From NCBI RefSeq assembly GCF_003369835.1, contig NZ_QPMJ01000001.1:62001-126000 (forward strand): a stretch of DNA of 64,000 nt, in the 5' to 3' direction. The stretch is from Halorussus rarus. Its GTDB lineage: Archaea > Halobacteriota > Halobacteria > Halobacteriales > Haladaptataceae. Shown piece after piece: positions 33,283-63,951 of the stretch (the stretch's first letter is position 1; every line of letters begins with the position of its first letter). The notes under the pieces are model-generated. The model saw nothing but the letters and a program-made list of their open reading frames with translations, had not been told where the DNA came from and ran no database searches. The translations under genes were made by a program, and so were the position numbers.

Positions 33283-33735
33283 ATGGACGCCGACATCGAC
33301 GCGGTGCGGGTCGCGATGACCGACGACGGGCCGGTCCCGGTCGTCGTGCTCGCGCCCCGCGACGAGGAGGGCGTACTCCCCATCTTCATCGGCTTCAAGG
33401 AGGCCGTCAGCATCGCCCGCGGGATGGAAGCCGAGGACATCGGCCGCCCGCTGACCCACGACTTGACGCTCGACCTCGTCGAGGAGCTCGGCGGCCGGGT
33501 CACTCGCGTCGTGGTCACGTCGCTGGAGGACAACACCTACATCGCGGACCTCCACGTCGACACCCCGCGGGGCGACACCGTGGTCGACGCCCGGCCGAGC
33601 GACTCGCTGGCGCTGGCGGCCCGGACCAACGCCCCGGTCGAGGTCGAGACCGACGTGTTCGAGTCGGGCCGGCGCGACCCCGACGAGTTCGAGGACCTCC
33701 AGGACATCAAGGAGGTCACGGACCTCAGCCCATGA
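33283..33735 (+). CDS. Bifunctional nuclease (DUF151) family protein
   Basis: A 150-residue protein of the DUF151 family, members of which have DNase and RNase activity. Conserved blocks are VVVLAPRDEEGVLPIFIGF, EAVSIARGMEAEDIGRPLTH, SLEDNTYIADLHV and VDARPSDSLALAARTNAPV, the best family signatures. The ATG at 33283 is preferred over a TTG two codons earlier. The stop overlaps the hisE start (ATGA), showing translational coupling. Confidence 0.9.
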   Translation: MDADIDAVRVAMTDDGPVPVVVLAPRDEEGVLPIFIGFKEAVSIARGMEAEDIGRPLTHDLTLDLVEELGGRVTRVVVTSLEDNTYIADLHVDTPRGDTVVDARPSDSLALAARTNAPVEVETDVFESGRRDPDEFEDLQDIKEVTDLSP

Positions 33736-34085
33736 CCGGGCGGTCGACCGACTCGGAGGAGACGCGAGCGGACGCCGACGAGGCGACCGCCGCGGCCCCG
33801 ACCGACGCCGTGCTCGACGAACTGTTCGCGGTCGTCGAGGACCGCAAGGAGACCCTGCCGGACGAGTCGTACACCGCGTCGCTGTTCACCCACGAGAAGG
33901 GCGAGAACGCGGTGCTGGAGAAGCTCGGCGAGGAGACCACCGAGCTCGTGCTCGCGGCGAAGGACGACGACCGCGAGGAGATCGCCCACGAGAGCGCCGA
34001 CATCGTCTACCACCTGCTCGTGCTGCTGTCGATGAAGGACATGGACGTCGCGGACCTCCGGGCGGAACTGCGCGAGCGTCGGTGA
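33732..34085 (+). CDS. hisE: Phosphoribosyl-ATP pyrophosphatase
   Basis: A 117-residue enzyme of the second step of histidine biosynthesis, hydrolysing phosphoribosyl-ATP. The all-alpha MazG-like core shows SYTASLFTHEKGENAVLEKL, EETTELVLAAKDDD (Mg-binding ExxE) and HESADIVYHLLVLL. The N-terminal 28 residues are an acidic extension. It overlaps the upstream nuclease gene by four bases. The other his genes are elsewhere. A hairpin cluster begins about 50 bases past its stop. Confidence 0.93.
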   Translation: MTGRSTDSEETRADADEATAAAPTDAVLDELFAVVEDRKETLPDESYTASLFTHEKGENAVLEKLGEETTELVLAAKDDDREEIAHESADIVYHLLVLLSMKDMDVADLRAELRERR

Positions 34086-34136
34086 ATTGCCCCTTTCTCG
34101 GAAACTGATCCTCACTTGCGGTCGGCGCGCGCTGGC

Positions 34137-34206
34137 GCCTGCGGGAGCGAAAGCGACCGCAGGCTCGTGGGAGCTTCGCTCCCACGGCGCGACCTCGTGT
34201 CGCGCC
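34137..34206 (+). repeat. Array of three perfect hairpins, possible structured RNA
   Basis: Three stems follow without a break. GCCTGCGG/CCGCAGGC (34137-34164) encloses GAGCGAAAGCGA, i.e. a GAAA tetraloop on a 2-bp stem flanked by tandem G-A mismatches. CGTGGGAGC/GCTCCCACG (34166-34186) has a TTC loop. GGCGCGAC/GTCGCGCC (34186-34206) has a 5-base loop. Outer CGCGCTGGCGC (34129-34139) can also pair with GCGCCAGCCGCG (34202-34213), giving an alternative multibranch fold. The whole gap 34086-34407 shows no protein gene. Confidence 0.5.
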
Positions 34207-34407
34207 AGCCGCGTGAGGGATGAGGACCGCAGTCGGTTGGGGAGGTGTGTGGCCGGCGGTCGCGGTTGCTGTGCGGAAACTCATTGGTGACGGCAGTAGC
34301 TAGCTTCCCGCCGACCGTCTCCGTCATAGCCTTCAGCCGACCGTCTTCGTCATCCGTGCCACTACCAGTATCACTCAACACCGGAAAACCCGACAGAACG
34401 AGACCCG

Positions 34408-34731
34408 TTACGATCCTCGGGCCGCCTTCTCGAATCGGTGGAGCACCACGTCGCTGTCGTCGTCCCACTCGAAGTCGTCGTGAGCCCGGTTCAGTATCTC
34501 GCGGTACTGCTCCAGGTCCCGCATCCCCTCCTTCCGGGCGTCCTCGTCGGTCAGGTCGCCGAGGGTGCGCTCGCGGACCTCGACGACCTCGAACGACTGG
34601 CCGTCGACCTCGAAGCGGTCGCCCTCGTCGGCGTACTGCCGGCCGCGGTGGATCTGTGTGATGTCGCCGTCTCGCGCGCCTTCGCGCATCCGCTCGTTCG
34701 GGAGCAGGGTGTCGGCGTCGATTGTCGCCAT
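34408..34731 (-). CDS. ASCH-domain protein
   Basis: A 107-residue protein with the beta-barrel ASCH (PUA-like) fold, expected to bind RNA or nucleotides. Visible motifs are GARDGDITQIHRGRQYADEG, the strand region FEVVEVRERTLGDLTDEDAR and EYR-like EQYREILNRAHD. The length is typical for stand-alone archaeal ASCH proteins. The ATG at 34731 follows the usual pattern. It is convergent with the hairpin region after hisE. Confidence 0.85.
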   Translation of the reverse strand: MATIDADTLLPNERMREGARDGDITQIHRGRQYADEGDRFEVDGQSFEVVEVRERTLGDLTDEDARKEGMRDLEQYREILNRAHDDFEWDDDSDVVLHRFEKAARGS

Positions 34732-50206: not shown

Positions 50207-50388
50207 GGTTATCACCACGGGCGTTGGGTGGTTCAGTCCGCAGGAGCGGACCACATCCCGTCCCGCGGCCGACCGCGAGCGAACCGCCCGCGCCCGGCCC
50301 ACAGGTGCCCGCTGGTGCCCGTCTGCCAGCGAGTTACCGGGATTTCTCGTCGTCGGGGTTTAAGAACTTCGGATTGGGTCGGGCCGCG

Positions 50389-63124: not shown

Positions 63125-63820
63125 TTAAACCACGTCGCCGCGGACGGTAGCGCCCTCCTGGCGCTTCCGGTAGGACTCGACAGCCGCGGCGGCCTCGTCG
63201 GTCTTGGACTCGTCCATGCCGAGCATCTCCAGCGCGTCGGGCAGCGTCGGGAAGGCGAGTTCGCTCTCTCGGAGTTTGCGCAGGGCCTCGTCGCTGCGCT
63301 GGCCACCGGCGGACGAGTCCGCCGAACCTCGCCTCGCTTCGCTCGGCTCACCCCCGACCCAGAGGCAGACGCCGCGGGGGTCCAGAATCTGCTCGTAGGC
63401 CTCGCGCTGCATCGCGCCCTTGAGTCGCTGAGTCACGTTGTCCTCGAAGCTGGAGTTGCAGACCTCGAGGTGGACCGGCTCGTCCTCGGGCAGCAGGTGG
63501 GCGGCCAGGCACTTCTCTGGCGCGGCGTGGCCGCTGTCGTTCGCCCGGAGGTACTCGGGGTGTTGCTCAGCCCACTCCGCCCGGACGGTCTTGCCGACCC
63601 CCTCGACGCCGTGGGACTTCCGGAAGCGCTCGGCGGCGTCGCCGTCGTCGCCCCGCAGGAGGATGTCCTTGGTGACGTACACGTCGAGTCGCTCGACCGG
63701 GTCGAGGCCGAGTGCGACGTCGCCGTAGACCCAGAGCTCCCGGACCGGGACCGGCATGGTCTCGTCCTCGACGGCGGCGAGGATGTCCTCGACGCGTTCG
63801 ATCGCCTCGTCTCGGTTCAT
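63125..63820 (-). CDS. DUF7095-like haloarchaeal protein with a palindromic insertion
   Basis: A 231-residue soluble protein. It starts MNRDEAIERVEDILAAVEDE and continues with VPVRELWVYGDVALGLDPVE and DVYVTKDILLRGDDGDAAER, typical of an uncharacterised haloarchaeal family that I recall as DUF7095. Around residues 165-180 the protein has an Arg/Ser/Gly-rich loop (GEPSEARRGSADSSAGGQRS), encoded by a perfect DNA palindrome at 63307-63324 plus GAGCGAAGCGAG-type repeat sequence. That segment looks inserted. The rest has normal composition. Confidence 0.75.
   Translation of the reverse strand: MNRDEAIERVEDILAAVEDETMPVPVRELWVYGDVALGLDPVERLDVYVTKDILLRGDDGDAAERFRKSHGVEGVGKTVRAEWAEQHPEYLRANDSGHAAPEKCLAAHLLPEDEPVHLEVCNSSFEDNVTQRLKGAMQREAYEQILDPRGVCLWVGGEPSEARRGSADSSAGGQRSDEALRKLRESELAFPTLPDALEMLGMDESKTDEAAAAVESYRKRQEGATVRGDVV
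63307..63324. repeat. Perfect palindrome inside a coding gene
   Basis: CGGCGGAC-GA-GTCCGCCG is a perfect 18-base palindrome, followed at 63331-63348 by CTCGCTTCGCTCGG-type repeat sequence. The unit encodes the extra Arg/Ser/Gly-rich loop of the DUF7095-like protein without breaking the frame. It belongs to the same sequence style as the hairpins at 34137-34206. Confidence 0.55.
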
Positions 63821-63951
63821 GGATTCCCGGTTCGGGTTCGGAGCGGTTAACGGTGCCGTGTTCTCGACTCGAGACGGTCGTCGGTTCGCGAGTGCTCGCG
63901 AGTTCGACGGGAGGCAGTCCAACTAGGCCGCAGAAATTCGGCCGACCGGCC

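Follow-up and report, generated by a model that had tools for sequence, protein, structure and literature searches.

The hairpin cluster behind hisE of Halorussus rarus is best read as a transposase-less, REP-like mobile DNA repeat, nested in another repeat and perhaps moving as a folded single strand, and we assign this reading a probability of about 0.6. The site lies in a 64,000-nucleotide stretch of contig NZ_QPMJ01000001.1 (positions 62,001 to 126,000, forward strand), hereafter the window. Its inner part is a 52-bp double-hairpin module, for which genome sequences directly display a covarying structure, wide spread, a site preference, arrays, an in-frame insertion beside empty orthologues, and nesting within the 182-bp outer repeat. 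If the reading is right, most haloarchaeal genomes hold a minimal mobile unit that builds arrays, remodels intergenic sequence and extends proteins by peptides of 16–17 residues.

Hairpins in the gap between hisE and the ASCH gene

hisE (PRA-PH by Pfam) occupies 33732–34085, with its stop at 34085, and the downstream neighbour is an ASCH gene at 34408–34731 on the minus strand. The gap of 322 bases contains only mechanical open reading frames, in agreement with a preliminary description of this DNA that gave about 320 bases and no protein gene. The three successive stems of that description are present, as are the GAAA loop and paired GA/GA mismatches of the first (34139–34162). The outer stem that it proposed as a competitor of the third is also real, since TGGCG (34133–34137) is able to pair with CGCCA (34203–34207) and to displace the module's GGCG (34186–34189). 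The hairpins are correctly placed at 34129–34213 of the plus strand, but the true feature is larger, 34123–34304. The features of the site, and of a second module copy in the window, are as follows.

34123–34304, plus strand: one copy of the outer dispersed element, from its start CGGCGCGCGC to its fixed 3′ end GTAGCTAGC
About 34125–34134 with about 34206–34214 (34125–34214), plus strand: helix P1, from the DNA fold and the copies; looser than P2
34133–34137 and 34190–34193 with 34199–34207 (34133–34207), plus strand: stem P2, loop CTCGT, split by the module and undivided in paralogue L038
34133–34137, plus strand: target-like left flank TGGCG of the module, fitting the (C/T)G(G/A)NG preference of 75 sites
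34138–34189, plus strand: double-hairpin module, 52 bp (R2 match, 66.2 bits, E 1.6e-12)
34139–34162, plus strand: hairpin 1, from sequence and covariation
34139–34144 with 34157–34162, plus strand: stem 1, the outer stem of hairpin 1
34145–34146 opposite 34155–34156, plus strand: GA/GA tandem mismatch of stem 1, followed by inner GC/GC
34149–34152, plus strand: GAAA loop of stem 1
34163–34167, plus strand: foot GCTCG, pairing with the 3′ end CGGCG by the pairs of alignment A3; putative guide
34163–34188, plus strand: hairpin 2 with TTC loop, from sequence and A3 covariation
34166–34174 with 34178–34186, plus strand: stem 2, closing the TTC loop
34186–34193 with 34199–34206, plus strand: stem 3
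34237–34245, plus strand: conserved block TTGGGGAGG of the outer element (alignment A1)
34287–34304, plus strand: fixed 3′ end GTGACGGCAGTAGCTAGC of the outer element, from host copies
63304–63348, minus strand: second, degenerate module copy (R2, 32.1 bits), in frame inside a DUF7095 gene

Folded as RNA, the 160-nt region reaches −92.3 kcal/mol, compared with −73.0 (sd 4.4) in 200 shuffles (z −4.4; 0 of 200 fold as well), and the opposite strand also gives z −4.4. The 52-nt unit folded as DNA has a z of −5.2, and its complement −4.7. The conserved features fit a folded DNA strand as well as RNA. An Rfam scan of the hairpin region returned no family above the gathering threshold, and ARAGORN returned no tRNA over the 64-kb window. 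The sole Rfam match in the window is an eL15-Euryarchaeota ribosomal protein leader at 50225–50277 on the minus strand.

The outer element is a dispersed repeat

A genome search with the hairpin region retrieved dozens of partial copies in the host (G000, 4.37 Mb), and the box first drawn around the hairpins corresponds to the 5′ part of a longer element. We infer the boundaries of this element from its copies only: 28 host copies were aligned, a covariance model (R1) was built on 18 short copies and matches 34176–34304 in the window, and the 5′ start was set by comparison with other copies. The 3′ end GACGGC(A/T)G(A/T)AGCTAGC has 60 host matches at two or fewer mismatches, 38 of them exact, against 22 for a reversed control. 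R1 has 69 matches in the host genome and is found in 17 of 18 Halorussus genomes (G017 lacks it) and in 8 of 9 genomes of a second genus, but not in the single genome of a third; across the order, 114 of 286 genomes match (E up to 1e-4). Scanning named genomes with the 3′ end gave five stretches, two in Halorussus and three in unrelated bacteria that look like chance matches.

Host copies taken with 1.5-kb flanks were all scored intergenic (30/30). The upstream gene lies on the strand of the element in 17 and on the opposite strand in 13, thus in no fixed orientation, by gene calls that are crude and assign hisE itself to the wrong strand. At the hisE site of the 16 Halorussus genomes with an intact locus (2 of 18 were left out), eight carry the outer element, one carries its 3′ part with tandem repeats, and seven carry none that is recognisable. 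We reject a hisE-linked riboregulator, because the element stands at many loci and comes and goes at this site. A reading of the cluster as part of hisE or as one RNA domain is not supported; it consists of two independent dispersed repeats, one inside the other.

The single 3′-part copy (L149, in G156) has long tandem GGGGCGGTGCGGTGCTGTGC repeats followed by the retained 3′ end, without the 5′ domain, and is a 3′-only copy of the outer element with repeat expansion. One of the seven genomes scored as lacking the element, G114, has a GC-rich stretch there that might be a remnant.

The sister species G176 and G118, whose blocks are mostly 91–95% identical, differ by the presence or absence of the outer element at three places in about 400 kb. 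Six further sites were compared as shared, one of which is doubtful, with flanks that hardly align. A base-exact empty site of the outer element was not found between these two genomes, the flanks being too different to align. The outer element probably represents a separate family, broadly similar in kind to the module, with a fixed 3′ end of its own.

Helix P2 is maintained almost perfectly despite extensive change of its letters. Over 84 copies (87 distinct 5′ domains were examined, three of which have no clear stem), 780 of 791 pairs are Watson–Crick; the exceptions are four G-T, three A-C and four others, and G-T pairs, which RNA would tolerate, are therefore not enriched. There are 36 different versions of the first eight positions of the arm, and arms swapped between copies pair at 52% as opposed to 98.6%, a drop that is partly one of register. 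P2 of the hisE copy is wholly different between the sister species, in a neighbourhood about 92% identical. P1, counted over 87 copies with no gaps allowed, has 410 Watson–Crick, 56 G-T, 14 A-C and 42 other pairs.

In G074, L127, L132 and L133 have a different 5′ half, a long perfect stem followed by CGCGGGGAGGCACGGGG and GCGGT repeats, and a 3′ end of the same kind, GTGACGG(C/G)AGTAGCTA(C/G)C; they are a sister element family. L128 of the same genome has tandem repeats of about 104 bp with the 3′ end of the outer element pointing one way and a variant pointing the other. A motif of approximately GGTGGATGAAAGGGGCC, on one strand, recurs near several copies, upstream of L006, L014 and L031 and downstream of L024; it has no match in the window at three mismatches.

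The module is a covarying double hairpin

The module interrupts the P2 stem of the outer element exactly, and paralogue L038, which reads CTGGCG-CGACCTCGTGTCGCGCCA and contains no module, is the paralogous empty site. In other copies modules occupy the P2 5′ arm, the P1 3′ arm, the third hairpin, a place near the 3′ end, or positions outside the outer element. The consensus, of about 48–58 bp, runs from 5′ TCY through hairpin 1, the foot GCTCG and hairpin 2 to 3′ CGGYG. Hairpin 1 has the layout stem-GA-SC-GNA-GS-GA-stem, and the foot pairs with the 3′ end through A3 columns 84–149, 85–148, 87–147 and 88–146, with G-U in 61 of 88 at the foot pair.

Compensatory changes had been set beforehand as the test of this structure, and copies elsewhere in haloarchaea carry them. 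Among 30 units selected with a pairing condition on hairpin 1 (A2), double changes occur at 9 of 17 pairs. When units were picked by the letters GA-NC-GNA-GN-GA-N6-GCTCG, with no pairing condition, 33 distinct sequences emerged, of which 31 form five or six of the six outer pairs. As decoys, AG..AG with the same linker gave no sequence, and the linker CGTCG gave two, neither fully paired. In A3, an alignment of 89 model matches that is itself fitted to the module model R2, 98.3% of cells pair and double changes occur at 16 of 17 stem pairs; the 290 double-change cells exceed the 81 (sd 9) of shuffled controls, and pairing falls to 33–44% when partners are slid.

The GA/GA mismatch and the GNA loop stay fixed as the stem letters change. 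The mismatch of the 33 distinct hairpins is GA/GA 30 times and AA/GA three times; as inner pair, 24 have GC/GC and six have AC/GT. The loop is mostly GAA, GGA or GTA, the GAAA of the window being a minority form. The DNA mini-hairpins d(GCGAAGC) and d(GCGAAAGC) are unusually stable, and both match the loops of the module.

Of the 286 genomes of the order, 242 contain at least one match to R2, and 74 of the 85 genera are represented among them (at most 20 candidates were scored per genome). In a phylum-wide draw of 294 genomes, all 47 that match belong to this order, and 227 genomes of the draw have no match. The module has 15 matches in G017, a genome without the outer element, indicating that the two families are independent. 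In the open-access literature we found no paper describing the double-hairpin module.

Insertion sites, arrays and in-frame copies

Site preference was analysed for 75 of the 89 R2 matches, 14 being left out. In the left flank, position −1 is G at 68 sites, position −4 is G at 60, and position −5 is C or T at 67; these letters resemble the CGGYG that ends the module itself. They could also pair with the foot GC(T)CG, at 2.85 of 4 positions, compared with a mean of 1.66 and a maximum of 2.05 in shifted windows. As 26 of the 75 sites fall at two recurrent places, the preference may partly reflect shared ancestry of sites; the other 49 show it too, with 3.02 of 4 (shifted mean 1.64, maximum 2.06). 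The base at target −2 and the penultimate base of the module are associated (Fisher p 5e-7 for 75 sites and 0.001 for 49, the sites not being fully independent). Left flank and module 3′ end agree in both last letters at only 29 of 75 sites, and hence there is no target duplication: the module is placed just after a short sequence like that at its own 3′ terminus.

Insertion is seen most clearly, by comparison of orthologous genes, for the second copy in the window. The DUF7095 gene (Pfam; 63125–63922, minus strand) holds 16 additional residues contributed by this copy, and its orthologues in G176 and G118, 84–85% identical over 245 residues, are without them; the empty site reads GCCGACG-GCCAGCG. 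Two other genes, one FrhB-like (L279) and one of DUF7097, likewise contain in-frame modules, and those within genes occur on either strand.

In addition, modules form head-to-tail arrays with exact joints. G118 has five units of 51–53 bp where G176 has one and a part. A HAD-family gene (Pfam) encodes four 16-residue repeats in G118 and one in G176, with the unit antisense to the gene. The module explains, at the DNA level, this repeated peptide in a haloarchaeal HAD-family protein.

Proposed mechanism and the search for a mover

In our proposal, the likeliest route of spread for the module is as a folded single DNA strand, to which we give somewhat less than even odds. Recognition of the hairpins would fall to an enzyme provided in trans, of the HUH type or similar, and an enzyme of some sort is presumably involved. 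The foot GC(T)CG would serve as an internal guide with two pairing partners, the CGGYG that ends the module and the (C/T)G(G/A)NG of the target. This guide role, which we put forward tentatively, is suggested by IS200/IS605 elements, in which cleavage and target sites are chosen by letters next to the hairpin; a comparable role was tested for one REP system (PMC8266576). The module would be joined behind the target with no target duplication, and each inserted module would offer a fresh target at its 3′ end, giving rise to head-to-tail arrays, although arrays could arise by slippage alone. The module set provides natural covarying hairpins with built-in target letters, which makes the guide idea directly testable.

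Y1/RAYT and TnpB proteins find no support as present movers. PF01797 (Y1 transposase) has 0 matches in the host genome; it occurs in 15 of 28 genomes of the family but is absent from several high-copy relatives such as G041, G114, G156 and G058, and copy number does not follow its presence. The one TnpB-type gene (PF07282) in the host lacks ends of this kind, and the outer element lies near 1 of 21 transposase loci examined. The question posed is which enzyme moves the module where Y1 transposases are missing. It is conceivable, though we think it rather doubtful, that haloarchaea share an old and still active mobile DNA only some 50 bases long: a double hairpin that guides itself, its foot choosing the 3′ cut and the target, moved by a non-Y1 enzyme and recruited repeatedly for in-frame peptide repeats.

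Alternative explanations

The strong covariation of the module stems, the RNA-like GNRA/GNA loops and sheared-type GA pairs, and the tolerance of G-T in P1 and the foot pair might also be expected if the repeats formed a family of structured RNAs, non-coding or within mRNAs, whose plus-strand structure is kept by selection for binding, stability or processing. We consider this unlikely. The repeats have no promoter-like constancy and no fixed orientation to genes, modules occupy many different positions in the outer element and run antisense to a gene that contains them, G-T pairs in P2 are not in excess over A-C, and Rfam has no match. A repeat that is not mobile at all, produced when replication slips and switches template at GC-rich palindromes, with arm copying that mimics compensatory change, would account for the changing unit number of arrays, for near-perfect P2 stems with symmetric exceptions, and for the replaced P2 of the hisE copy. 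However, modules with the same ends, foot, GA/GA and loop occur at unrelated loci in 74 of 85 genera, one is inserted in a gene whose orthologues hold no related sequence, and template switching leaves the fixed unpaired letters unexplained. We consider this explanation unlikely as well.

Descent from a known transposon, the repeats being decayed, non-autonomous termini of a haloarchaeal IS200/IS605 element (PATE) or of a TnpB guide RNA, seems to us very improbable. PATEs lack terminal inverted repeats and target duplication, have palindromes close to their termini and a conserved terminal oligonucleotide, are hit by small repeats (PMC3119063), and resemble the outer element in outline. Against such descent stand the TnpB-type gene without such ends, the scarcity of the outer element near transposase loci, and copy numbers independent of Y1.

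Comparison with known repeats

REP, REPIN and BIME repeats, with TnpA-REP (RAYT) and the GTAG and CGTC superfamilies, are likewise short, high-copy palindromic DNA with variable stems; like the module, REPs insert in other palindromes and sometimes in open reading frames, and carry guide-like letters beside the hairpin (PMC3733652, PMC8266576). The module is a short dispersed palindrome with a covarying stem, as REPs are, but differs in its two hairpins in fixed direct order, its GA/GA and GNA motif, and its archaeal host without a Y1 enzyme (RAYT). No GTAG or CGTC tag was found among the fixed letters of 30 units (TCY, GCTCG, CGGYG) or in 75 flanks. Insertion behind a 3′-end-like site with no target duplication is shared with IS200/IS605-type elements, and the terminal inverted repeats and target duplication of MITEs are lacking.

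Among haloarchaeal repeats, SMR-A and PATEs of Haloquadratum walsbyi are, like the module, transposase-less and free of target duplication, and SMR-A inserts within palindromes of other repeats; SMR-A is set apart by a length of about 110 bp and prominent terminal inverted repeats, which the 48–58-bp module does not have (PMC3119063). Rickettsia palindromic elements (RPE) are also in-frame palindromic insertions in unrelated protein genes (PMC10969869), as the module is in the DUF7095, HAD, FrhB-like and DUF7097 genes. RPEs are bacterial and about 150 bp long, whereas the module is archaeal and about 50 bp. We know of no RPE with a double hairpin carrying fixed GA/GA and GNA. Mitochondrial double-hairpin and repetitive hairpin elements resemble the module in their double hairpins, tandem insertion and presence within genes; they are organellar, and the accessible text mentions neither a GA/GA-GNA motif nor a guide-like foot (PMC2800124). 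The module is thus akin to REP, SMR-A, PATEs and RPE in behaviour and different from them in tag, length, termini or host.

Two further settings of module-like sequences were observed. L208 and L229 contain module-like 48-bp units (E about 1e-4) within coding sequence. By eye we take this coding sequence to resemble a histidine-kinase N-box region. In several genera (L265, L276, L284, L288, L291 and L016) the module stands between T-rich and A-rich stretches, for example TTTTTGGTC and TTTTTCGAGG, which are possibly a terminator-like host repeat.
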